This document shows, piece by piece, positions 4,826-44,067 of a DNA stretch of 55,862 nt (position 1 is the stretch's first letter; every line of letters starts with the position of its first letter). The stretch is taken from contig CAUYTW010000330.1 of NCBI GenBank assembly GCA_963575715.1, positions 1-55,862 of the forward strand, written 5' to 3'. The translations under genes and the position numbers were made by a program. Source of the stretch: Gammaproteobacteria bacterium. Lineage in GTDB: Bacteria; Pseudomonadota; Gammaproteobacteria; CAIRSR01. The notes below the pieces were generated by a model, which was not told the DNA's origin, made no database searches, and saw nothing but the letters and a program-made list of their open reading frames with translations.

Positions 4826-5293
4826 GTCAGGAACGCCACGCCTAAAGGCGGGGGTTTGAGAAGTCAAATTCACAAGTTCAGAACTTGACTAGCCTGAGTC
4901 CAAAGTATCGGACTACGTTTTTGGAGTCATGATACCTGCGGATGCGTGCCAGTCCGCAGCTCTGTCGCTCACCGTTAAATCTCTTAGAGGGTTATATTCC
5001 CCGCCGCTTGCGGCGTACGAAAATACAGTGTCTGATAAGGCACTGTAAAACGAAGGTGAGCCGCATAGCGTGCGAACCGTAGTGCAAAAATACCCCGCCG
5101 CTTGCGGCGGGGTTGTTTATCATCTTTAATGGGGTTAAGGAAGTGCGGTTAGCGGAACAGAGCTGCTGAAAACATTGGCGAGGCAAACATAACCGGCGCA
5201 AGCCGAGTTGCCCTTACAGGCTGACAGCCGGGAAAGACCGGCTCCTAATTCTGAAAACCGCCCGCTTTCCTCCCTGCCCGGCTAAAGCCGGGG
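4826..5293. repeat. Long structured repeat, copy A, carrying a 141-bp insert
   Basis: The segment is the reverse complement of 21424-21749 apart from a 141-bp insertion at 4979-5119. It contains nested palindromes such as CCACGCCTAAAGGCGGGGG, GAAGTCAAATTCACAAGTTC, AGTCCAAAGTATCGGACT and GCCGGGAAAGACCGGC. The terminal CGCCTAAAGGCG and GGCTAAAGCC hairpins resemble IS200/IS605-type right ends. No tnpB remains. Non-coding by inspection. Confidence 0.75.
4979..5119. mobile_element. 141-bp hairpin-ended mobile element (copy 1)
   Basis: It is identical over 141 bp to 23874-24014. It has an imperfect hairpin near the left end (CCGCCGCTTGCGGCG) and a perfect CCCCGCCGCTTGCGGCGGGG hairpin near the right end, plus an inner stem ACAGTG...CACTGT. 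The uninterrupted site survives at about 21590-21605 in the inverted copy B. No net target duplication is seen there. Hairpin ends without duplication suggest an IS200/IS605-type non-autonomous element (PATE-like). Confidence 0.75.
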
Positions 5294-5387
5294 TGGCTCT
5301 CTCGCCGGCATTTGGTGAGTGAATGATATACAATATACGCCTTGTTGCCATCCTCAATAACTTCAACTTTTTCAGGAATAGCTACTG

Positions 5388-5957
5388 ATGCATACCACTT
5401 TAATCAACACCGAAATCCAGCCTTTCAAGGCTACCGCTTATCAGAACGGTAAGTTTGAGTCGGTGACCGACGCCGACCTAAAAGGCAAATGGTCCGTAGT
5501 ATTTTTCTATCCTGCTGATTTTACTTTTGTTTGTCCGACCGAGCTGGGTGACTTGGCCAGCAGTTACGCTGAATTTAAGAAACTAGGCGTAGAAATCTAC
5601 GCAGTATCCACTGATACCCATTTTACCCACAAGGCCTGGCACGATACCTCGGAAACCATCGGCAAGATTCAGTTCCCGATGGTGGGCGATCCAACCGGAA
5701 CAATTACACGTAATTTCGGCGTGATGATTGAGACCGCTGGTTTGGCTGAACGCGGTACTTTCGTCATCGACCCGCAAGGAAAAATTCAAATCATCGAGAT
5801 TACAGCCGGTGGCATTGGCCGCGACGCCTCCGAATTGCTGCGCAAGGTCAAGGCTGCTCAGTACGTCGCGTCTCACCCCGGAGAAGTGTGCCCGGCCAAG
5901 TGGAAGGAAGGTGATGCTACCCTGACGCCATCGCTGGATTTAGTCGGCAAGATTTAA
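5388..5957 (+). CDS. ahpC: Alkyl hydroperoxide reductase subunit C (2-Cys peroxiredoxin)
   Basis: AhpC reduces hydrogen peroxide, organic peroxides and peroxynitrite in the cytoplasm and is recycled by AhpF. At 189 residues it has the family's typical length. The peroxidatic cysteine is Cys49 in DFTFVCPTE and the resolving cysteine is Cys168 in [10 protein letters not shown]. The [13 protein letters not shown] region is also typical of AhpC. The ATG at 5388 is preceded by AGGAAT. ahpF follows 80 bases downstream with a hairpin between the two genes. OxyR control is common for this pair, but I could not identify an operator in the short upstream region 5294-5387. Confidence 0.97.
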
Positions 5958-5973
5958 GGCATTACGATCCTTG

Positions 5974-6011
5974 GGCGTCGGTTGCTTCAGGCACCGACGC
6001 CTTTTTTATTT
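5974..6011 (+). terminator. Intrinsic terminator or attenuator between ahpC and ahpF
   Basis: A 9-bp stem GGCGTCGGT / ACCGACGCC with a short loop is followed directly by a run of T residues. Lying between ahpC and ahpF, it probably lowers ahpF expression relative to ahpC, which fits the excess of AhpC normally found in cells. Confidence 0.8.
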
Positions 6012-6037
6012 TTTATTCGCCATTTCAGGAAAACGCC

Positions 6038-7585
6038 ATGATCGACGCGAACCTTAAAATTCAATTAAAAACCTATCTCGAAAAGCTCGTGGTGCCCATC
6101 GAATTGGTTGCGTCACTCGATGACACGCCGAAATCGGGCGAAATGCGCGCCTTGCTGGAAGATATCGCCAGCCTGTCCAGCAAGGTGAGCTTGCTGGACA
6201 ACGGCAAGGATGCCCGCCGTCCGTCGTTTTCGATTAGCCGCGTCGGTGAATCGCCCCGCATTCGCTTTGCCGCCATTCCCATGGGACATGAATTCACTTC
6301 CTTGGTTCTGGCACTGCTTCAAGTCAGCGGCTATCCGCCCAGGATCGAGCCGGACGTAATTGAACAAATTCGTGCGCTGGCGGGCGAGTTTCATTTTGAG
6401 ACTTATATCTCGTTGTCCTGCCAAAACTGCCCGGAGGTAGTCCAGGCACTCAACATCATGGCGGTAATCAATCCCAATGTCAGCCATATCATGATTGATG
6501 GCTCCCTGTTCCTAGACGAAGTGAACAAGAAACAGATCATGGCCGTGCCCAGTGTCTACCTGAATGGCCAGACTTTTGCGCAAGGCCGACTTGGTATAGG
6601 AGAAATTCTCGCCAAGCTGGATAGCGGCATGGTGATGCGCGAGGCTGCCAAACTGGCGAGCAAGGAGCCATTTGATGTATTGGTAGTCGGGGGTGGACCA
6701 GCTGGAGCGGCGGCAGCGGTGTACGCCGCGCGCAAGGGCTTGCGCGTTGGAGTGGTGGCGGAACGTTTTGGTGGTCAGGTGCTCGATACCATGGCCATCG
6801 AAAACTTGATTTCGGTGACCCATACCGAAGGCCCGCGCCTGGCACGTGCGCTGGAAGAGCATGTGCGCCAATATGAGATTGATATCATGAACCTGCAACG
6901 CGCCGCCGCATTGGTACCAGGGGAAAAAGGCGGGCTGCATGAAATCAGGCTCGCCAATGGTGCGACACTGACAGCCAAGGCAGTCATCATCGCCACCGGC
7001 GCGCGCTGGCGTGAGATGAATGTCCCTGGCGAAAAAAAATATCTTGGCCGGGGCGTGGCGTACTGCCCGCATTGCGACGGGCCGTTATTCAAGGGCAAGC
7101 GGGTGGCCGTGGTTGGCGGCGGCAATTCCGCAATCGAAGCGGCGATAGATCTGGCCGGGATCGTGGCTCATGTCACTTTGTTATCGCGGAGCACTTTACG
7201 CGCCGATGCCGTGCTGCAAAAAAAATTTTTCAGTCTTCCCAATATCACCGCACTCAACAACGCTCCGATTACGGAAGTAACCGGCGACGACAACAAGGTC
7301 AATGGCTTGGTTTATACGGATCGAATTAGCGGTGAACGCCGAGCAATCGAACTGGAAGGCATTTTTGTTCAGATCGGTCTCTTGTCCAGCAGCGATTGGC
7401 TCAAGGGTACGCTGGATCTTTCCTACCAGGGCGAGATCGTGGTAGACGCACGGTGCCAAACCTCGTTGCCGGGGGTGTTCGCAGCTGGCGATTGCACCAC
7501 GGTACCCTATAAACAAATCATCATCGCCATGGGTGAGGGTGCAAAAGCCAGTTTGACCGCGTTTGATTACTTGATGTTGCGTTAA
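6038..7585 (+). CDS. ahpF: Alkyl hydroperoxide reductase subunit F (NADH-dependent flavoprotein)
   Basis: AhpF passes electrons from NADH through FAD and two disulfide centres to AhpC. At 515 residues it is close to the usual length of about 520. The N-terminal tandem thioredoxin-like domain carries CQNC near residue 128. An FAD-binding [17 protein letters not shown] lies near 214, the thioredoxin-reductase-type CPHCDG redox centre near 346, an NAD-binding [10 protein letters not shown] near 358, and a C-terminal AAGDCT motif. The start is supported by AGGA nine bases upstream. It forms an operon-like pair with ahpC. It converges with the next gene, and a GCTCGCC/GGCGAGC hairpin (7638-7657) lies between the two stops. 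Confidence 0.97.
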
Positions 7586-11250: not shown

Positions 11251-12798
11251 TGATTTACGTCGATGAAAGTTTAACGCTTGCTGCACCTCAAAGTGATCGC
11301 TAAAAGGCAGCAAATCCGTTCCTATTTGCTGGTAGCCCTCGTGTCCCTTCCCCGCGACGAGGACAACATCTCCTGGCCTAGCGTATTCAACGGCGTGCTG
11401 GATAGCCAAGCGGCGGTCGGGGATCACGATGGCCTGGTTAGGATCATTCATGCCATTCAGGATGGTGCGGAAAATATCATCCTGGCTGTCACCACGCGGA
11501 TTGTCATTGGTGACAATAACTTTGTCTGCAATGCGCTCGGTTACCGCTCCCATTAATGGACGCTTTCCGGGGTCGCGCTCGCCACCGCAGCCAAAAACAC
11601 ACCATAACCGACAATCGACGGCGGTATGCTCGCGCAGGGTCAGCAAGACCTGCTCCAAGGCATCGGGGGTATGGGCGTAGTCAACTACCACTAGGGGCAT
11701 AGTAGGACCACCTCCTAACCGTTCCATCCGGCCAGCGACGGTACGTACCACCGAAAGCGCCAGCAATGCCTCGTCCAGCGGCATTCCCAGCACTCCCAAA
11801 GTTGCGAGCGCTGCCAGTAGATTCAATGCGTTGAATCGTCCTAACAATGAACTTTCCAGCATCCCGGTACCCCAGGGGGTCGCAACCTCCATGCTGAGTC
11901 CCGTGGTCAAAAGAGAAAGTTCTTTACCCTGAACGTATTGCTGGCATGATGTTACTGAAGGAGAAAGGCCATAACCTACGGCCTGGATTGACGGCGGTAA
12001 TCTCTCAAGCAGCACGCGGCCAAACGCATCATCTGTATTGATTACTGCGTATTCCAGGCCGGGAATTCGAAACAATCGTTGCTTGGCCAGACCATAGGCT
12101 TCCAGGTTACCATGGTAGTCGAGGTGATCACGGGTAAGATTGGTGAAGACCGCTACATTGAAAATAATCCCTTCCACCCGCCCCTGGTCTAGGGCATGAG
12201 AAGAGACCTCCATGACGAGTTGGCGTGCGCCTCGGGTGACCAGATCGGCAAGTATTCCTTGCAGAGTGACTGCATCGGGTGTGGTGTGGTTGGTGGGGGT
12301 GAATTGTCCATGGAGGCCAACGCCAAGGGTACCGATTACCGCGCAGGGGGCATCATCGCGATTCAGAATTTGGGCTAAAAGATGGGTAGTCGAAGTTTTA
12401 CCATTGGTTCCCGTGACTCCAATTATTGTCGTAAAACTGCGTGAAGGGTTACCATGAAAACAAGCGGAGATTCGACCCAGGTGAAAACTAAGATCGGTCA
12501 AACTTACGATGGGTACTCCCTGACGCCGGGAATAAAAAATCGTTTTTCCTTCGGTAACTACCGCTACCGCTCCGCGTGCAATAGCCTCATCGATGAAGTG
12601 TGAACCATGGGTATGACTACCGGAGCGGGCAAAGAATAAATCTCCCGTCAAGACCCGCCGACTGTCCAAGGCGAGTCCTGACACTCCCGGATTGCAATCC
12701 GCAGGAAGCAAGACGACGCCGTCGAGTAATTCATTCAACGAGATAATCAATGTTATGCTGCTTCCTAAAATGTGCGCATAAGTGTTTATACGCGCCAA
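11239..12798 (-). CDS. murE: UDP-MurNAc-L-Ala-D-Glu:meso-diaminopimelate ligase
   Basis: MurE adds the third peptide residue to the cytoplasmic peptidoglycan precursor using ATP. It is 519 residues long. Visible signatures are the LALDSRRV N-terminal UDP-binding block, the P-loop GVTGTNGKTST near residue 128, the MEVSSHALDQGR block, and the NDNPRGD motif that marks specificity for meso-diaminopimelate rather than lysine. The start is uncertain because the first 20 residues look unlike other MurE proteins. The final residues (FHRRKSSHG) and the stop are encoded by an intergenic repeat, so the native C-terminus has been slightly altered. No other mur or division genes flank it, although murE usually lies in a large cluster. 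Confidence 0.95.
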   Translation of the reverse strand: MARINTYAHILGSSITLIISLNELLDGVVLLPADCNPGVSGLALDSRRVLTGDLFFARSGSHTHGSHFIDEAIARGAVAVVTEGKTIFYSRRQGVPIVSLTDLSFHLGRISACFHGNPSRSFTTIIGVTGTNGKTSTTHLLAQILNRDDAPCAVIGTLGVGLHGQFTPTNHTTPDAVTLQGILADLVTRGARQLVMEVSSHALDQGRVEGIIFNVAVFTNLTRDHLDYHGNLEAYGLAKQRLFRIPGLEYAVINTDDAFGRVLLERLPPSIQAVGYGLSPSVTSCQQYVQGKELSLLTTGLSMEVATPWGTGMLESSLLGRFNALNLLAALATLGVLGMPLDEALLALSVVRTVAGRMERLGGGPTMPLVVVDYAHTPDALEQVLLTLREHTAVDCRLWCVFGCGGERDPGKRPLMGAVTERIADKVIVTNDNPRGDSQDDIFRTILNGMNDPNQAIVIPDRRLAIQHAVEYARPGDVVLVAGKGHEGYQQIGTDLLPFSDHFEVQQALNFHRRKSSHG

Positions 12799-13380
12799 TT
12801 AAAGATAATTTGCTTTCTGTTGATAGGCATTGCACCTGCAACTGAAGTCCTGGTTGGGCAGTACTCAACCGGAGGCCGGTCTGTACCGTCAACATTGTGT
12901 GTTGATTGAGCATTGAAAACCGGATTACCGTAAAAGCTATTCTGCTGCTCATCCTTGGACAGAACGACTTGGCGATCCAATGTGGTCGCACTTGAAGATA
13001 CGCAACAATTTATCGCGTCATGGATAAACTATACATAGATAATGATGATAGAATTCATACACAATGTCAAATCCAATACTGATCGTAGATATATCTTTCA
13101 ATACCTTCACCAATCTGGCCAGTTGGTGACCATGAAGAATCGCCAAATTGTAACCGTTTGACGCAGAGGCTGATGAATTAAAATTCGATCAGCGAATCCC
13201 GTACCCGATTTTTATCGACGCACTATCGGTATTGTCCACTCACTAGCGCACAAGAATTCCAGGATTGCTTCACAACATAGCTTTTTGGCCTTTAACTATA
13301 CTTATCATCAGCTTTTATCGAACTTAAAAAATTTCCCTGTCAGAAACCGATATCTCACTTTATCCTCGGGGATTAAGGTT
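12799..13380. other. Gap without a recognisable gene
   Basis: These bases separate divergent murE and the GH9 gene. I see no coding signal, no RNA gene and none of the repeat families found elsewhere. Both promoters should lie here, but no convincing -35/-10 pair stood out. Confidence 0.5.
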
Positions 13381-16300
13381 ATGAAAATCCAGCAAAACAT
13401 CGTTTCTCGCTCATGGTTAGCTGTCTTCTGCTTAGGCATCGTTTATCTGGTTTACCCGCCTCAATTGTTCGCCGCAGTTACCACGCCTATCGGTACGGCG
13501 GGCCTCGCGGGCTATTGGCCGTTGGAAAATGATTGGCATGACGCGATGGGCGGACATGATCTAATGCCGACGGCGGCAGGGGGTTTCTCGCCCGCTCCTT
13601 ATGTCGGCGGCACAACCGATCTGGGCTATGGACCGACGCATCTCGCCACCGGCAATGGTGCTCAAAGCGCGGACTTCACCAGTCTGGACCGCAGCCAAGG
13701 CGTCACTCTGGAAGGATGGTTCTTCGTGCCGGATAACACTTCGGCCGGGCGCTTAATCGGCTTCGGCAAGGAGTGGACCGATCCCAAGCTGGTCGCGACT
13801 ATCGCCTGGGGCTTCCTGTGGATCAACGTCGGCAAGATGAATGCCGGGGTCAATCTCCAATATCCGCGCTATGGCGATCTGTGCTGGCATCATCTGGCCG
13901 TGGTCTTGGCCCCGCCAGGACAACAGGACGCGCCGATCCGGGTTTATGTGGACGGTACCGAAGTCGTGCCCTTGCAAGTCGATGGCGATTTCAGTCCCGC
14001 TGCCATTGATGCCGCCCAGCTATTCGGCGCTCCGTTCCGTATCGGCGAATTCGAGAGTACCGACGGCACGTCCAGCGGTGGAAACATGCGGGTCGATGAG
14101 ATGCGGGTATGGACACGGGCGTTGGGTGCTGATGAAATCGCCCAACTCAGCCATGCCAGCGGCACGGGTGCCCGTTGCGAGGGGCCGCCACCGCCCGATT
14201 GGTCGCCCGTCCAGCAGCGGTGCACATTTCCACAACCCCGACCCAAGCCGGTATTGGATATGGGCGTCAGGGTATTGGACAACCGTAATGTGGTGGTGAT
14301 CGCTGATCCCAATCCTTGGCTGAAGAGCCGGGTGAACAGCGATTGCGGAGTATTTCTGACTGCCTTGGAAGCCCATCGCGCTGAACTCCCTGATTGGCTG
14401 TATTTCAACGAATACGATGCCGCTATCCGCGAAACCCTGCTCTACTACCGGCCTGCGGTGTTCGCCGCCTTGGATAATCCGGCGCATTACCGGGTAGGCC
14501 GGGTGGGCGCGCCGCTGCAAACCCCCGTTGACGCTGGCGTCTGGCCGCAGGCGGTGCGGGAATTCCATTTCCCCTCGCTGGCGGCGGGTGGGAGCGAACT
14601 CCACACCTATTCCGCCGAGGTGGTGTATTTCAGTTATCTGACCCTGGCGGAAGACCTGCAACCAGGGGAAACCTATCGGGTTCAGGATACCTGGGGCTAT
14701 AAACCATCCTTCCTATACGATCCTAATCGCACCCTATCCTGGGCCATCAAGACCAACCAACTCGGCTATTCGCCCGTTGCTGTGGAGAAATACGCCTATC
14801 TGGGCGGCTGGTTGGGTGCAGTGCGGGGCGCTTTGGATGTTCGGCGCTTCGAGGGTCAGCCGTTTGATGTGGTGCGCAATCAGGACAAAACAGTTGCTTT
14901 CACCGGCAAGCTGGACTTTCGTGCCGACGACCGGAGTGTGGATGGCTCCGGCGAATGGGTTTATCAGGCTGATTTCTCGCCACTGACTACACCCGGCAAT
15001 TATTTTATTCGCATTCCCGGCGTGGGCCGCTCGCGCACCTTCACTATCGGTAAGAATCCCCTGGGCGAGGCGTTCTATATCCATGCCCGTGGTCTTTATC
15101 ATCAGCGTTGCGGCACGGACTTGACCGCGCCCTATACTGCCTGGCAGCGTAGCGATAACCACACCGTGACTCGGCAAGCGGCGTTTCCGCCAGCTTCGGA
15201 AGATTACACCGACCACAGTGCGGAAGGATGGGGCTTCCTCGATGCCAACGGCCATTTCCCTGCCAAGAATTTTAGCGCCTTCGAGCTGATCGGCTATACC
15301 GCGACCGATACCGTGGTCCCCGGCGTAAAGGGCGGCTGGCACGATGCTGCCGATTACGACCGCGACGAAGGCCATATGAAAATTTCCCGCGATCTCGCCC
15401 ACGCCTATCTGATGTTCCCCAGGAATTTCCGCGACGGCCAACTGAACCTGCCAGAAAGCCAGAACGGCGTGCCGGATATTCTCGACGAGGCAGCTTGGGG
15501 GATAGAGGTGTGGCGTCTGGCCCAACAAGCCGATGGACGGGTGGCGACCCGCATCGAAGCAACCAGTCATCCCCATGAAAGCAATCCGGGCAAGGACACC
15601 CAACCCTATTACCTGAGTCTCGCGACTCATAATTCCAGCCTGTCCTATGCGGCCAGCGCCGCTCTGGTGGGGCGGGCCTTGGTCAAGGCCGGGGATGTGG
15701 CGCGGGGCCAAAGCTATATCAAGAGTGCCCGGAGGGCCTATGCCTATGGCGTGGGGAATGGACCTCGGGTGATGATGTCTTTCCAGGCCGACGATGGCGC
15801 GACCTATACCTGGCGCGAGGCGCCGACGGTCGATGCACGGCGGAAGTTCTATGCCACGGTGCAGCTCTGGCTGGCGACTGGCGACCCCGCCTACCGCAAG
15901 GTGGTGGGGAGTGCCGCGATGGTCCAGGCATTCCAGGGCGAATTGGCCGCGCTCTACTGGCGGACGAATTCCTACGATCTGGCCGATATCGTGCTGGCAC
16001 CGACGCGCTTCCCGTCCGGTTGGGCCATTCAAGCCACTCAAGCCGTGGTAAACAATGCCGCCGACTGGCTAGGCAGGCAAGCCAAAAGCCCCTATCGCAA
16101 ACTGTGGTACACGCCGGGCGAGGGCTATTTCCCGCTGATGGCGTGGGGTCAGAATGGCTTCACACCGATTTTGCATTTGGTCGCAGCTTGGCGCTACAGC
16201 GGTGAGGAACGCTTCCATACCGGGGCATTGCTGGCGGTGGACTGGATGCATGGTGGCAATCCCCAAAACCAGGTGGGGACGACCGGGCTGGGGCAGTACA

Positions 16301-36107: not shown

Positions 36108-36851
36108 TCAGTGCGCACGGAAATTTCGCAACAATTTATATTTTCTGTACGTCGTGATTGCGTTCATCCGTGCAATATCCCAGCCGGTGCGTCCATCCAG
36201 AATACCCAGGCGTAGAAAATAAGTTCTAAAAAATGCCCAGAAAGCACGTAATGGCGCATCCAAGAGCACGGCTTTTTTTCCTTTTTCGAGCATCTGCTGT
36301 GCCGCAGCGAGTGAATATTGCTCAATTTTACGTGTTACATCGATTTTGTTTCGATAGCTGTAATGCAACAAGGGAAATGATAATTTCGCAGTTGTCCCGT
36401 GCAAAATTAAACTTTCATGCACCAGGCTATCCGAAAAACGCCCTTTTTCGCGCTTGAACAAGCGTAAGACATAATCAGGATACCAGCCGCAATGACGCAC
36501 GAAATTACCGCAAAATTGCGATTTTCTTGGAATAAAAAAACCATCCGCTTGATGTTCCCTAATCGCTTGTAAAATTTCAATTCGCAGTTCTGGAGTTACT
36601 CTCTCGTCGGCGTCCAGGGAGAGAACCCAATCCATGCTGGCATAATCTAGGGCACGATTTTTCTGCGCGCCAAATCCCGGCCAATCATGAAGATAAACAT
36701 GCCTGGTAAATTTACGTGCGATACTTGTCGTGGCATCCTCGCTACCAGAATCGACGATGATAATCTCATCTGCCCAGGATACGGATTCGAGAGTTTCATA
36801 TAGATTAGCTTCTTCATTCTTAACGATTAGTACAACAGATATCGTAACCAA
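36108..36851 (-). CDS. Family 2 glycosyltransferase (WaaE/KdtX-like)
   Basis: The 247-residue enzyme has a GT-A fold with ISVVLIVKNEEANLYETLES at the nucleotide-binding start and a DxD-like LSLDADERV near residue 80. A conserved RKSQFCGNFVRHCGWYPDY and HESLILHG follow. This pattern matches LPS core glycosyltransferases of the WaaE group. The probable TTG start at 36851 has GGAG seven bases upstream on the minus strand. It is divergent from the corrinoid activator gene, and the two start codons share a base. Confidence 0.88.
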   Translation of the reverse strand: MVTISVVLIVKNEEANLYETLESVSWADEIIIVDSGSEDATTSIARKFTRHVYLHDWPGFGAQKNRALDYASMDWVLSLDADERVTPELRIEILQAIREHQADGFFIPRKSQFCGNFVRHCGWYPDYVLRLFKREKGRFSDSLVHESLILHGTTAKLSFPLLHYSYRNKIDVTRKIEQYSLAAAQQMLEKGKKAVLLDAPLRAFWAFFRTYFLRLGILDGRTGWDIARMNAITTYRKYKLLRNFRAH

Positions 36852-38458
36852 TGGTCTACTCCAAGGTCCCGGCAGTCGCGCAGCATCCCATATTTGTCAC
36901 GCCATTGCTTGGTCATTCGGTATGGGAAAGCCTGGAGGCGCGGGGGATTCCGATTCGTACCGGCTGTCGCGGGGGCGGGAGTTGCGGCCTGTGTCGGGTG
37001 CGGGTGTTGGATGGTGCGGTCCATTCGCACACTGCCCTGGAACAGCGTCGCCTGTCGGAACGTGATCTGGCCGAGGGTGTGCGTCTAGCTTGTCAGCTGC
37101 GACCACCTGGTGGGATCACGGTCGAACCGTTGCTGCGGATGCCGCGTCACGAATGGCGTCCATTGCCCACCGAGGACGAGATTCGATCCACCCTCGCCAC
37201 GTCCACCTTGACGTGCGCCGAGACCGCCCCTAATCACAGTTTTGGTCTCGCGGTTGATCTGGGCACCACCCAGATTCGCATCGCCCTTTGGAACCTGACT
37301 AACCACGAGCTGGTGACGACTCGTCATGGACTCAATCCACAGGCCCGTTTCGGTACCGATCTCCTGACCCGCCTGGCGGCGGCTACGTCCGGGCACGCCG
37401 AGGAACTTGCGCGACTCGTAACTGAATCCATTAGTGAGGCACTCAACGACATGCTCGCCGTGCGGGCGCTCACGGGTAAGGTCCGACGAGTGGCGGTAGT
37501 CGGCAATACCGCCATGCTTGCCTTATTGACCGGGAAAGGTACAGACGACTTACTCCATCCCGACGGTTGGACTCGTCACATTGAATGTCAACCGACGACG
37601 ACAGAATCTTGGCGACAGGCGTGGAATCTCGCCGATGATGCCCGGATTGGCGTAATCCAACCCTTAGCGGGTTTCGTCGGCTCGGACTTGCTGGCTGGAT
37701 TGATTGCCACGCGGCTGACGGAAGGGCGGCGAGCTTCGTTGTTCATTGACTTCGGCACCAATACCGAGATTGCGCTTTGGGATGGTCAAGTTCTATACGT
37801 CACTTCCGCCGCCGGTGGTCCAGCTTTCGAGGGCAGCGGCATCCGCGACGGGATGCCTGCCGAAGCAGGAGCAATATCTCAAGTTGATCTCGGCCTCGAC
37901 CACACGCCGATCTTGCGGGTCATTGGCAATGGCGAGCCACTTGGCCTCTGTGGCTCGGGCCTAGTTGACGCGGTGGCGGTCCTGCGGCAAGCGCGTCTCC
38001 TGTCACGCGCTGGGCGTTTCGCCGCTGAAGTTGATCCACACGGCTTCGCGCTGTCGCGGTCGCCTCGGGAGATTCTCCTGACCAAGCGCGATATCGACCT
38101 TTTTCAGCGCGCCAAGGCGGCGGTCGGTGCGGGAATTTCCTGCTTGCTGGAACAGGCCGGCCTGAAAACTCGTACCCTCCAGCGTTTGTGCATCGGTGGG
38201 GCATTTGGTCGCTATCTCAGGTTGAGTAGTGCGCGAGAAATCGGGTTACTTCCCGCCATGCCTTCGGAGCATATCGAAATATTGTCGGAATCCGCCCTGG
38301 TGGGTTGCAGTCGATTATTGCAAGAACCCGATCCGGATAAAATACGCGCTGAAATCCTGGATACGGCGTATTTCATTAATTTGGCCCACCATCCTCGTTT
38401 TGAGGACCATTTTATTCAGCACCTCAGCCTCGACGCGCGCCTTTTAGAATTAGAATAA
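36851..38458 (+). CDS. RACE-type reductive activator of corrinoid proteins (2Fe-2S / ASKHA)
   Basis: Such proteins re-reduce inactive Co(II) corrinoid to Co(I) with ATP hydrolysis. The 535-residue product has an N-terminal plant-type 2Fe-2S ferredoxin (cysteines 39, 45, 48 and 81 in TGCRGGGSCGLC and RLACQL), a linker, and an actin-like ATPase domain. That domain has phosphate loop 1 AVDLGTTQIRIALW, VVGNTAMLALL, phosphate loop 2 FIDFGTNTEIALW, LCGSGLVDAVA and CIGGAFGRYL. It heads a run of four codirectional genes with its probable target corrinoid protein 36 bases downstream. The start at 36851 overlaps the start of the divergent glycosyltransferase. Confidence 0.92.
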   Translation: MVYSKVPAVAQHPIFVTPLLGHSVWESLEARGIPIRTGCRGGGSCGLCRVRVLDGAVHSHTALEQRRLSERDLAEGVRLACQLRPPGGITVEPLLRMPRHEWRPLPTEDEIRSTLATSTLTCAETAPNHSFGLAVDLGTTQIRIALWNLTNHELVTTRHGLNPQARFGTDLLTRLAAATSGHAEELARLVTESISEALNDMLAVRALTGKVRRVAVVGNTAMLALLTGKGTDDLLHPDGWTRHIECQPTTTESWRQAWNLADDARIGVIQPLAGFVGSDLLAGLIATRLTEGRRASLFIDFGTNTEIALWDGQVLYVTSAAGGPAFEGSGIRDGMPAEAGAISQVDLGLDHTPILRVIGNGEPLGLCGSGLVDAVAVLRQARLLSRAGRFAAEVDPHGFALSRSPREILLTKRDIDLFQRAKAAVGAGISCLLEQAGLKTRTLQRLCIGGAFGRYLRLSSAREIGLLPAMPSEHIEILSESALVGCSRLLQEPDPDKIRAEILDTAYFINLAHHPRFEDHFIQHLSLDARLLELE

Positions 38459-38494
38459 CAAGCGTCCTGCCCCAATTCCCAAGGAAATCCCTCC

Positions 38495-39160
38495 ATGTTG
38501 GCGCAAGTGATTAGCACTTATAATGAAGCACTCTTTGACACCGATCGCGATCAGGCGCTTTTGGTAGTGCATGAAGCGGTTAAAAATGGCATGCTCCCAG
38601 AAGATATCGTTTTCAAGGTGGTCATTCCGGGCATCGAAACGATGATGAAGGCCATCAGCGAGGATATCGACGCTAATCTCGCCCAGCATTTCATGACCGC
38701 CCAAATCGCGCTCCAGGTGACCGAGGAAATGTTACCGCACTTCCTTCATCCGCCGGTGAGCATTGGTCGTGTCGTGCTGGGCACCGCCAAGGGTGACCTG
38801 CATTCGCTGGGTAAACGCATTCTCACGGGCTGCCTACGCTCGTTGATGATTGAGGTGATCGACTTAGGCGTCAATGTCGATCCCACACGTTTTGTTGATC
38901 AGGCGGTGACCCACGGAGCAGATGTTATCGGCATCTCCGCGATGATGATGCATACCGCCGATGGTGAGGAAGGTTGCCGCCGGGTGCGCCGAATTCTCCA
39001 GGAGCGTGGCCTGGAAAACCGCGTTCGCGTCGTGGTTGGTGGCGCACCGTTTCGATGCGACCCCGATCTGTGGCAACGAGTTGGGGCTGATGGCTGGGCA
39101 CCCGATGGAATTAGCGCGGGGCGAGTGATTACCAATCTGATTCACGAGATCCATGCATGA
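38495..39160 (+). CDS. Corrinoid (cobalamin-binding) methyltransferase protein, MtbC/MtaC-like
   Basis: The 221-residue protein is the methyl carrier of a three-component methyltransferase. A helical cap occupies residues about 1-85. The Rossmann-like B12-binding domain follows, with the base-off ligand motif D-x-H-x-x-G as Asp101, His103 and Gly106 (GDLHSLGKRIL). A GISAMM loop and VVGGAPF also contact the cofactor in relatives. AAGGAAAT precedes the ATG. The stop overlaps the start of the next gene (ATGA), which suggests translational coupling. Confidence 0.94.
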   Translation: MLAQVISTYNEALFDTDRDQALLVVHEAVKNGMLPEDIVFKVVIPGIETMMKAISEDIDANLAQHFMTAQIALQVTEEMLPHFLHPPVSIGRVVLGTAKGDLHSLGKRILTGCLRSLMIEVIDLGVNVDPTRFVDQAVTHGADVIGISAMMMHTADGEEGCRRVRRILQERGLENRVRVVVGGAPFRCDPDLWQRVGADGWAPDGISAGRVITNLIHEIHA

Positions 39161-40203
39161 TAACGCCCTCGGAACGACTGCTTGCGACGGTGAATGGTCA
39201 ACCCACGGATCGCATTCCGATTTTTTGCAACCTGCTCGACCAGGGCGCACGCGAACTGGGCGTGGCGTTGCGTGATTATTATCGTGACGGTACGTTGGTC
39301 GCCGAGGCGCAGCTGCGCATGAGGGAAAAGTACGGCCATGACAATGTCTGGTGTCTCTCTTACGTTGGCAAGGAGGCGGAACTGCTCGGCTGTCGCGAAA
39401 TTCTTTTCGCTGAGGACGGCCCGCCCAACGTCGCCGATTTCGTCATCCAGGAACCTGCGGACATTCATAAACTGCATGTACCCGACGACCTCACTACTCA
39501 TCCTGCCTTTCGCGCCACGCTTGACTGCTTAAAGGTGCTACGAGCCGAAATTGGGGGCAAGGTGCCGATCTGCGCCTATCTCACTGCGTCAACGACCTTG
39601 CCTGCGATGTTAATGGGAATGGACAAATGGTTGGAACTGCTCCTGTTCGGTCCAACTGAATTACGTGACTTGCTGTTGGCCAAGTGTTGCGATTTTTTCC
39701 ACAAGCAGTACCACGCCTACCGCGCGGCAGGAGCGGATTTACTTTGTTATTCCAGCCCGTTCACCTCGACCGACTTTTTGCCGCGCCGCCTTATTCGGGA
39801 ATTCACCTTACCGTGGATGGAGCGTGACTTGCTCCCATGCGGATTCGAGGGTGTAGTTTACTTTTGCGCGCAAGCGCGGGTCGTGCCGTCCCTCGATTTA
39901 GTATTGGAACGTCTTCCCCCGCCCACAACCGTTTACCTTGGCCCGGACGAGGATAGCGCCGCCGCCAAGCGAATCGTCACGGACCGCGCCCTGACCTGTG
40001 GCATCATCAACGATATCAAGCTGTGCCGCTGGAGCGAGCAGGAGGTGCGAGTCGAGGTCAAACGCTTGATCGAGATGGGCAAGCCGGGCGGTCGCTTTTT
40101 TATCGGCACCTCGGTGATGCCTCTCGCGATCCCCGAGCGCAATATCCATGCTTACATCGAGGCCGCGTCCGAATACGGATGCTGGAACGAAGGTAATAAT
40201 TGA
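39157..40203 (+). CDS. UroD-fold corrinoid methyltransferase
   Basis: The 348-residue protein belongs to the uroporphyrinogen decarboxylase/methyltransferase superfamily (ITPSERLLATVNGQPTDRIP start). Haem-pathway HemE is excluded by context and by poor agreement at its substrate residues. In thiol methyltransferases of this fold (MtaA, MtbA) zinc is held by His-X-Cys and a later Cys. Here the equivalent of HxC reads YFC (VVYFCAQARVV) and the later Cys is replaced (FIGTSVMPL). A zinc-thiol acceptor role is therefore unlikely. It may instead be the substrate methyltransferase (MT-I). The ATG overlaps the stop of the corrinoid-protein gene. Confidence 0.88.
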   Translation: MITPSERLLATVNGQPTDRIPIFCNLLDQGARELGVALRDYYRDGTLVAEAQLRMREKYGHDNVWCLSYVGKEAELLGCREILFAEDGPPNVADFVIQEPADIHKLHVPDDLTTHPAFRATLDCLKVLRAEIGGKVPICAYLTASTTLPAMLMGMDKWLELLLFGPTELRDLLLAKCCDFFHKQYHAYRAAGADLLCYSSPFTSTDFLPRRLIREFTLPWMERDLLPCGFEGVVYFCAQARVVPSLDLVLERLPPPTTVYLGPDEDSAAAKRIVTDRALTCGIINDIKLCRWSEQEVRVEVKRLIEMGKPGGRFFIGTSVMPLAIPERNIHAYIEAASEYGCWNEGNN

Positions 40204-40204
40204 T

Positions 40205-40786
40205 ATGTCATTGCCCCCTCTGCTACTCGGCTGCGGTATTTTTGCCAAAGAAATTGGCCATCTCATCGCAAAAAATGGTTGGGAAGTAGAAACGGTATTC
40301 CTTGATTCGGCGTTGCATAATTATCTCCAGCGTTTGGAAAAGGGCCTCACCGGTAGCCTCGCCAAGCGCCATGGCCGTGATATCGTGGTGTTTTATGGTT
40401 GCTGCCATCCACTGATTGACCGTTGGATTAGCAGTGCGGGCGCAACGCGGGTGGTGGGTCAGAATTGCGTCGAGATTTTACTTGGCAAGGAACGTTTTGA
40501 CCGTGAATTGGAAAACGGCGCGTTTTTTCTACTAGAGGAGTGGGCGCTACGCTGGGATCGAATTACTCGGGAGCTTTATGGTGCTAATCCCGAGGTTATT
40601 CGAGAAATCTTTCGAGGTGAATTGAGCAGAATGCTCGCTATCCGTACTCCATGTTCTGCTAATTTCAGCGCGCTAGCCGAAGCTGCGGCGGAAAAAGTTG
40701 GATTACCGCTGGAATGGACCGATGTTGGATTGGAGCATCTGGAACAAGTATTGGAAACAGCCCTGCGAAATAAACTTCATGAGTAG
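40205..40786 (+). CDS. DUF1638 family protein
   Basis: The 193-residue product starts at ATG 40205, one base after the previous stop, in preference to an upstream in-frame ATG inside the preceding gene. It has the family's short N-terminal LLLGCGIFAKEI, a cysteine-containing VVFYGCCHP, then GATRVVGQNCVEILLG and a Tyr/Trp-rich FFLLEEWALRWDRI. DUF1638 genes are known as companions of corrinoid methyltransferases, including here. The biochemical role is unknown; the paired cysteines near residue 63 and Cys near 85 could bind a metal. Confidence 0.85.
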   Translation: MSLPPLLLGCGIFAKEIGHLIAKNGWEVETVFLDSALHNYLQRLEKGLTGSLAKRHGRDIVVFYGCCHPLIDRWISSAGATRVVGQNCVEILLGKERFDRELENGAFFLLEEWALRWDRITRELYGANPEVIREIFRGELSRMLAIRTPCSANFSALAEAAAEKVGLPLEWTDVGLEHLEQVLETALRNKLHE

Positions 40787-40794
40787 CAATATTT

Positions 40795-40887
40795 AACCCA
40801 AGTTGCCACCTATCCGTGGTTGCAAGGTTTCCGCCACAACGCGCACAGTGGAATGCGGCTTCAGGGGTATAGGTAGCAACTTGGGTT
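40795..40887. repeat. MITE with IS982-like ends
   Basis: AACCCAAGTTGCCACCTATC and ATAGGTAGCAACTTGGGTT form the ends of a 93-bp element. They match the ends of the deleted IS982-like element at 25523-25985. It begins eight bases after the stop of the DUF1638 gene. Confidence 0.85.
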
Positions 40888-41049
40888 ATTTAGTTAAATT
40901 TTTAACGCAAAAATAATTGACATCCTCTGGTCAAAATAATTGAATCTATGCAGGCAGACAAATTAAATAAAAATCATCAGTATTAGAAATTTTTCGGTTA
41001 ATTTAATGCCATTGATAACCAAAAAATTTTACCCATTTTGGTAATTCTC

Positions 41050-41895: not shown

Positions 41896-44067
41896 TCACA
41901 TGGTGCGTTGGGAAAGATTTTCCATTCCGAAGGAAATGTCCAGGGCCATTTCGTCTAAAAGCTGCATCATATCGGGATCAAAATAATTGGCATCGTGGGC
42001 ATAGGCCAACAAGACATGAGTGGTATGTCCGAACTCATGTAAGGGGAACATAGCAAAAGAATGAATATCATAACGATGGAAAAGGTCACTCCACGGAGAC
42101 AATAATGAGTGTGTCAGGATATCGGGGAAAACATGATGATTCCCTGCCAAAACTTCGGCCATGATATGACTCGGAATTGCATCGAAGTCGCGCAACTCTG
42201 GTTGTTGCAGCAAATCCTCAGCGGGTCCGTAATGGGCATAAGTAACCAAGTTTGGTGATTGGCCCCGCTGACCGATAATACAGGCGAGACGAAAACCGCC
42301 ATGGGTTACCGCTATTTGACAAACTGCATCGAAAAGCCCATCCCTAGTTTTGACCCGAATAATGGCTTGGTTAGTCTCGGTCAATGTTTGGTAAATACGG
42401 GTCAAACGAGTGACACGTTCTTCTGCCGCCTTGCGAGCCGATATGTCTTCAATGACGGTAATAAAATAATCAGCTCGCCCAGCGGCATCGCGCACCAAAG
42501 AAGCGGTAATCGCGATCCAGGTATCACTGCCATCCTGACGCCGGCAACGTTGTTCCCAATGGTCATGCGGAACCGTGCCGACCAAAAGCCGATTCATTGC
42601 CGCGACATCTGCGGTGGTGTCACCAGGCGGGGTAAGATCACGGAAAGTTTGCTCCATCAGATCCATGCGACTGTAACCCACAATTTCGCATAGGCGTTGG
42701 TTGAAGCGCATCCAGTGGCCGTCGGGAGTCAAATGGGCAATACCCACCGCTACCTGTTCGAAAGTAGCGCGAAACCGCCGTTCTGCTGTCTCTAATGCAC
42801 GTACCTGGGCCAGTTCATTGAGGGCAATGCGTAAACGCTGTTGCTGCCAGAGCATTCCAATGAAGGCTGCGGCCACAACTAGCGCCGCCATGGTCAATCC
42901 CCCCGCTACCCAGGCTAGATTACGAATACCCGCCACTGCCTCTTCCTCGTCCATTTTGGCAATCAGCGTCCAGTTGGTGTCGGGCACTTGTAAGGCGACT
43001 GCTAGAACTCGTGTCTGACGGTAATCCTGACCGCTAATCAGTCCCTCTTGGGCGTGAAGCGCCTGTACAGCCATTGAATCGGCGACATTCACCGATTGAC
43101 GCAGGGTAAGGGCAGTTCCCTGACGATGACGCAGCTCATTGAGATAAACAATTTCATCGCCCTCGCGGCGGATGAGTAATGTCTCACCGCTTGCACCCGG
43201 CAATGGCCAGGACTGAATAAAAGGATATAGATAAGCATTGGGTCGCATCTCAAGAAAAACTACTGCGGGCATTCGTCCACCCCCGGAAGCGGCCACCGGT
43301 GCGACGTAACCCATCTGGATGGCGTTGTCCGTTGAGCGACGGTGGAGATCAACCAGGGTTAGCGTCCCGGTGCGCATTGCCTCGACGGCTGCGGCGCTAA
43401 TGCGTTCTGACACGACCAGCCCCGGTCCAACCCCCAGCAGCAGATGTCCCGTGGCATCGAGAACTGCGACATTGGTGTAATTAGAACTGCCACGTACTCC
43501 TTCTAGGAGGGCGAGGATCTGATCTCGATCTGCGTTATCGGCATACTTGAACCAGCCTCCCAGGGCGATGCGTAGCGTGGGGCCACGCGCGAGCGCATCG
43601 ACATCGGCGCGGCGTTCCTCAAGCCAGGCGGAAAGGGTTGTAACCTTGAGGCGAGCAATCGCTCCTAGCGCGTCGAATTCATGGACGCGCAAAGCGTTGG
43701 AAAGACTGTGAAAAGCGATTGCGCCGACGATGGCAATCGTGAGGGTGAGTACCAATAATACGGAAAGCAATGGCCATGGACGGCCCTGCACTTCAGGGTT
43801 GGTCATCGAGGTTGTGGCGACGGGAATGGCGCGCAACGCTAGGAGAAGCAGCATTGCGGTCACAGCAACGAAAGCCAATTCGTTCATGCGACTAAGCCAT
43901 GCCGCAGCCGTGACATCCGCGAGACCGGAGAGCATCTGGCCAGACCAGAAAAACCACAGCACGGCAAAAATTATGTAACTCAAAACAACTTTCAGGATGA
44001 AGCGATTACGGGAAGATTCCCAGCTTTTTCGTGCATGTCTCTTCCAGTTTTCAATCATGGTTGCCAT
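41896..44067 (-). CDS. Membrane sensor with extracytoplasmic Cache, PAS and GAF domains, no output domain
   Basis: The 723-residue sensor has two N-terminal membrane helices (about 25-47 and 64-81), then another at about 103-122, an extracytoplasmic Cache-like domain (about 125-375), a helix at about 388-412, a PAS domain (RRFRATFEQVAVGIAHLTPD) with PAC, and a GAF domain. The sequence stops shortly after LDEMALDISFGMENLSQRTM, where relatives continue into a GGDEF, EAL or histidine-kinase module. No continuation is found in the following 27 bases before the ppsR stop. The protein is probably truncated at the C-terminus or signals by partner binding. Confidence 0.85.
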   Translation of the reverse strand: MATMIENWKRHARKSWESSRNRFILKVVLSYIIFAVLWFFWSGQMLSGLADVTAAAWLSRMNELAFVAVTAMLLLLALRAIPVATTSMTNPEVQGRPWPLLSVLLVLTLTIAIVGAIAFHSLSNALRVHEFDALGAIARLKVTTLSAWLEERRADVDALARGPTLRIALGGWFKYADNADRDQILALLEGVRGSSNYTNVAVLDATGHLLLGVGPGLVVSERISAAAVEAMRTGTLTLVDLHRRSTDNAIQMGYVAPVAASGGGRMPAVVFLEMRPNAYLYPFIQSWPLPGASGETLLIRREGDEIVYLNELRHRQGTALTLRQSVNVADSMAVQALHAQEGLISGQDYRQTRVLAVALQVPDTNWTLIAKMDEEEAVAGIRNLAWVAGGLTMAALVVAAAFIGMLWQQQRLRIALNELAQVRALETAERRFRATFEQVAVGIAHLTPDGHWMRFNQRLCEIVGYSRMDLMEQTFRDLTPPGDTTADVAAMNRLLVGTVPHDHWEQRCRRQDGSDTWIAITASLVRDAAGRADYFITVIEDISARKAAEERVTRLTRIYQTLTETNQAIIRVKTRDGLFDAVCQIAVTHGGFRLACIIGQRGQSPNLVTYAHYGPAEDLLQQPELRDFDAIPSHIMAEVLAGNHHVFPDILTHSLLSPWSDLFHRYDIHSFAMFPLHEFGHTTHVLLAYAHDANYFDPDMMQLLDEMALDISFGMENLSQRTM

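Follow-up and report, generated by a model that had tools for sequence, protein, structure and literature searches.

A four-gene operon in a 55,862-nucleotide stretch of gammaproteobacterial DNA (hereafter the window) probably serves as the chemical front end of a two-component/c-di-GMP signalling pathway, the input of which would be a corrinoid methyl-transfer module. Methyl utilisation is the function routinely assigned to gene sets for corrinoid methyltransferases. We favour a sensory role here because the protein that most often accompanies this module is a histidine kinase carrying a private GAF domain rather than a methyl acceptor. What was observed directly is the gene content, its conservation, the linkage and co-occurrence with the kinase, the domains of the kinase, the loss of zinc ligands, and the lack of a linked methyl acceptor. 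The operon consists of the following genes.

36851-38458, + strand: RACE, ATP-dependent reductive activator of corrinoid proteins (2Fe-2S and ASKHA domain); Pfam Fer2, Raco_middle, and RACo_C_ter above the cut-off.
38495-39160, + strand: COR, corrinoid-binding protein; Pfam B12-binding above the cut-off; intact D-x-H-x-x-G / S / GG cobalamin motif.
39157-40203, + strand: UROD, UroD-fold methyltransferase homologue of the kinase-linked clade; Pfam URO-D, 151 bits.
40205-40786, + strand: DUF1638 protein; Pfam DUF1638, 97.7 bits.

All four genes are intact and codirectional (36851-40786). RACE and COR are separated by 36 bases, COR and UROD share an ATGA overlap, and a one-base gap lies between the stop of UROD and the start of the DUF1638 gene. 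The preliminary description had presented these as four tightly coupled, codirectional genes, which the coordinates, the overlap, and the one-base gap bear out; the names it gave them agree with Pfam matches above the cut-off for all four, and its remark that only one methyltransferase is present was also correct. RACE orthologues were 39-46% identical in clusters of the same gene order. Since such clusters were found in many phyla, the operon arrangement is not due to chance. An Rfam scan around the operon found no riboswitch and no other family, and a scan of the operon for promoters and terminators gave signals at or below chance. Just 3′ of the operon, at 40795-40887, lies a copy of a dispersed palindromic element with arms AACCCAAGTTGCYACCTAT, which has further matches at 2250, 20578, 25524, 25964, and 55810. 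The arm matches the window at 7 places, where 0.01 matches would be expected, and folding of the copy at 40795-40887 gives z = -6; this looks like a small repeat element of the MITE/REP type.

In ten further genomes of the phylum, UROD homologues at 53-59% identity were all located in RACE-COR-UROD-DUF1638 clusters, and in every case a GAF/PAS/kinase-like gene came next. Scanning public genomes yielded 80 named loci from Pseudomonadota, Nitrospirota, Chloroflexota, Bacteroidota, Thermodesulfobacteriota, Hydrogenedentota, and others. COR and UROD were present in 80/80 of these loci, a coiled-coil-GAF protein in 75/80, DUF1638 in 69/80, and RACE in 52/80; as UROD was used to find the loci, the counts describe linkage, not frequency. 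The coiled-coil-GAF gene mostly lies 6-130 bases 3′ of the DUF1638 gene or UROD in the named loci. Five loci lack it: L103, L114, and L135 stop close to the cluster, and L109 and L110 carry other large genes downstream. HisKA and HATPase domains were found in 54 of the 62 coiled-coil-GAF proteins scanned, and REC in 31 of the 62. The N-terminal ~175 residues of the protein are conserved, with no Pfam match beyond weak ones to GAF_2, and the predicted structure of this region, a helix and a GAF domain, matches GAF domains.

The genes flanking the clusters mostly encode response regulators or PAS, GGDEF, or EAL proteins. REC was found in 20/35 of the same-strand neighbours 3′ of the kinase and GGDEF with EAL in 14/35, and REC in 27/52 of the upstream neighbours. 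The main and serious rival to the sensory reading is that the operon encodes a demethylase for catabolism or salvage, acting by O-, N-, or halo-demethylation, and that the adjacent, dedicated two-component kinase senses its substrate and controls the operon; we consider this unlikely, although it deserves weight. It predicts the same linkage, since a metabolic operon would likewise be linked to, and inherited with, its cognate regulator, but the neighbours argue against it: their 25 commonest Pfam families include REC, GGDEF, EAL, and PAS and no DNA-binding regulator domain. Two coiled-coil-GAF proteins per genome or locus occurred in G601, L073, L081, L082, and L086, within the same cluster in the four L loci, suggesting a duplication of the kinase output. 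In Mariprofundus (L048), the cluster is flanked by a gene with a CxxCH (haem-type) motif and a substrate-binding-protein-like gene (5075-6606 and 12459-13466), which are possible further sensor inputs.

Class-wide, the coiled-coil-GAF domain was present in 3 of 369 genomes, and UROD of the window's clade (W-type, see below) was present in the identical three. Phylum-wide, both were found in the identical 11 of 398 genomes, the window's genome included. The chance of identical genome sets, phylogeny ignored, is about 1e-7 for the 369 genomes and 1e-21 for the 398; the eleven genomes represent five genera, and the independent evidence is smaller yet still strong. The telling case is the window's genome, in which the kinase is present although unlinked. 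This orphan (G000:C222:41328-43409, 693 aa, HisKA-HATPase-REC) is embedded in another contig of 73.5 kb, unlinked to the operon, and is 40% identical to the linked kinases over nearly its full length. The lack of linkage in the window's own genome counts against the sensory reading. On the whole, a histidine kinase with HisKA/HATPase domains was either linked to the set or co-inherited with it, as in a two-component signalling module. A PAS/GAF protein at 41899-44067 was considered as the missing partner and rejected: it gave no coiled-coil-GAF match, and the true orthologue is on another contig. This protein (- strand), which weakly matches dCache, lacks a recognised output domain, and is convergent with a PpsR-like gene at 41038, is possibly a truncated sensor.

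The best curated family for UROD was MtaA/CmuA (TIGR01463), at 79.4 bits and thus below the cut-off of 235, and a profile search of the PDB with UROD gave MtaA (4ay7) and CdmB (9rui) as the only relatives. In a tree of 37 rows including MtaA, two other UroD-family proteins, and HemE, UROD fell in a clade, W, with support of 100/100. Clade W was joined to a sister clade, S, at 98/94, both apart from MtaA, the two other UroD-family proteins, and HemE; this join involves long branches and is less certain than the clades W and S themselves. The preliminary description had proposed such a tree as a check, and UROD did not cluster with HemE (100/100 split) and was in a clade separate from MtaA. We rejected the identification of UROD as HemE on this split and on the presence of a separate HemE in the window's genome (G000:C318).

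Alignment to 4ay7 indicated that the zinc ligands of MtaA (His-x-Cys...Cys) are not kept in clade W: 58/58 proteins have Tyr/Phe at the His position, and 58/58 lack the third Cys. UROD of clade S retains the His, and its first Cys is replaced by Ala. In this superfamily, His-Cys-Cys is the mark of S-methyltransferases, while in O-type enzymes either one Cys or both are replaced (PMC10418091). The loss of the zinc site speaks against the demethylase. It is also in line with redox or oxygen sensing through corrinoid Co(I)/Co(II), in which UROD would be a structural or ligand-binding partner without methyl transfer. We regard such redox sensing as improbable, to about the same degree as the demethylase; it is, however, a version of the sensory reading, and the likelihoods given to the explanations are accordingly not exclusive. 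Sister systems without RACE and the known sensory B12-binding proteins (CarH, AerR; PMC4557120, PMC9144470) also favour it. Against it, UROD is strongly conserved, with C24, Y198, D224, and D286 invariant in 58/58 proteins, and this pattern of residues suggests a ligand. In two Mariprofundus genomes (L024, L025; G102, G110), the UROD matches include one TGA; the UROD ORFs of L024/L025 are 343 aa, and the TGA there is probably the terminal stop.

No MeTr-like gene was found in the 80 named loci, where the MetH-derived matches listed were COR genes. A genome-wide search for a MeTr/MtvA-type partner, the other check proposed earlier, found none in the window's genome: PF00809 matched only a DHPS-like and a MetH-like ORF. 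In contrast, L070, whose UROD is distant (23%), has an adjoining MeTr-like gene, as expected of a metabolic cluster. Among the marks of a corrinoid demethylase operon, a cobalamin-binding COR and RACE are present, and a MeTr-type MT-II acceptor was found neither in the operon nor in the genome. RACE, a corrinoid protein, and a UroD-fold enzyme are the usual kit of demethylase systems (PMC10418091), and many holders of the set are methanotrophs, both of which fit a demethylase; the methyl acceptor, however, is missing in 80/80 loci and, beyond the MetH-like ORF, in the window's genome. The suggestion that the set represents a new methyl-utilisation route is not supported, as its conserved partner is a histidine kinase, not a methyl acceptor. 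Nor is it unusual for the class, since the set is widespread in aerobes, microaerophiles, and anaerobes.

Clusters of the S type, which also occur in the window's own genus (G001, L066), consist of COR, UROD, and a gene in which a DUF1638-like N-terminal domain is fused to a histidine kinase (HisKA-HATPase). Pfam DUF1638 scored 29.3 bits in the fusion of L066 and was not recognised in that of L062. The sister clade mostly lacks RACE, and no RACE was found anywhere in four near-complete S genomes (G001, G071, G107, and G128). Both the fusion and the RACE-free sister systems argue against the demethylase. The linker domain of the S-type fusion had no significant similarity to the coiled-coil-GAF domain, which counts against the sensory reading. 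On a plasmid of Candidatus Thiodictyon, the gene order is COR-UROD-RACE-diguanylate cyclase. On plasmid pAZKH of Azoarcus KH32C (L161), a sister-type COR-UROD pair is followed by ATP-binding (kinase-type) genes within a methanol/C1 island, between fhc/fae genes and a cluster for a PQQ methanol-type dehydrogenase. This context hints at a C1 ligand in that lineage, and the position of the cluster in an island with PQQ dehydrogenase, fae, and fhc would also suit a demethylase. Methanol/C1 sensing was considered as a general role and rejected, because the window's genome and most of the holders tested have no Fae; the same absence disfavours the demethylase.

In COR, D101, H103, G106, S148, G182, and G183 are invariant, and the cobalamin motif is present in both clades W and S. 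CobS is absent from the window's genome, so the cobamide is probably imported by the host. The DUF1638 protein has four conserved cysteines, C10, C67, and C88 in 53/53 proteins and C150 in 48/53. Its AF2 model has a pLDDT of 93.6, and a fold search of the PDB gave no match at E<=0.001. The role of DUF1638 is unexplained (PMC5764234), but DUF1638 and RACE-like genes serve metabolism, namely methionine synthase, in Phaeobacter (PMC5764234), which counts against the sensory reading. Methionine synthesis in Phaeobacter needs RamA-like and DUF1638 proteins, and the operon could accordingly be imagined as an accessory or alternative, split MetH-like methionine synthase. We rejected this reading as very improbable, because Pfam found no homocysteine- or folate-binding module in the four genes, the MtaA-type His-Cys-Cys thiol site is lost, and the genome already has a MetH-like ORF.

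For the sensory reading, we counted the kinase linkage, the exact co-occurrence, the REC/GGDEF/EAL neighbours, the DUF1638-kinase fusion, the RACE-free sister genomes, the Thiodictyon cluster, and the lack of MeTr; against it, in addition to the points above, RACE implies corrinoid turnover. We infer that COR and UROD are the input of the kinase, in which direction information flows, and that the signal is of a methyl or redox kind. In the proposed mechanism, RACE would bring COR to Co(I) with ATP and an electron donor, and UROD would offer COR a methyl donor or some other small ligand. The state that COR then takes (Co(I), Co(II), or CH3-Co) would be relayed, perhaps with DUF1638 taking part in the reading, to the GAF domain of the dedicated hybrid histidine kinase. 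The kinase would then pass phosphate to response regulators, often REC-GGDEF-EAL proteins, and RACE, perhaps with DUF1638 and its conserved cysteines, would reset the COR/UROD reader. More tentatively, and with somewhat less than even confidence, we propose a class of sensors spread over many phyla in which a full corrinoid methyl-transfer cycle (UROD, COR, RACE, and DUF1638) forms the part of a histidine kinase that reads the stimulus: a methylated compound would be demethylated onto cobalamin, and the cobalt-methyl state would be read by GAF.

No prior description of a kinase-linked corrinoid set was found in the literature searched, which covered subscription papers thinly. Each part comes from a known family, and sensors among B12 proteins are already known; if the proposal is true, enzymatic methyl transfer as the stimulus would be a new kind, and enzymatic demethylation would be a new feed into the two-component/c-di-GMP pathway. 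If the clade is a sensor, many methyl-utilisation annotations in methanotrophs, iron oxidisers, magnetotactic bacteria, and relatives of Geobacter are wrong. DUF1638, with its conserved cysteines, gains a testable setting, and Methylotuvimicrobium buryatense is a tractable holder, so the idea is directly testable.

Comparison with known systems places the set beside several families. It shares the UroD fold and the partnership with a corrinoid protein with MtaA/CmuA-type enzymes (MtaA 4ay7; CdmB 9rui), but its UROD scores 79 bits against the cut-off of 235, lacks the His-Cys-Cys zinc ligands, and forms a separate clade. Type 1 mlp clusters (Kountz & Balskus, PMC10418091) likewise combine a UroD-family protein, a corrinoid protein, and RACE; they contain three Mlps with His-Cys-Cys sites, and Se/S-methyl salvage is the role assigned to them (PMC10418091), whereas this set has one UROD instead of several Mlps, a lost zinc site, and a linked kinase. 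In the split methionine synthase/MtgC of roseobacters (PMC5764234, PMC12478193), RamA-like and DUF1638 proteins maintain the corrinoid; the set described here is without a homocysteine or folate module, and its partner is a histidine kinase. CarH and AerR (PMC4557120, PMC9144470) are B12-binding proteins in regulation, as we propose for this set. They bind or modulate DNA-binding regulators, whereas the set adds a methyltransferase homologue and an activase and has a histidine kinase as its partner.
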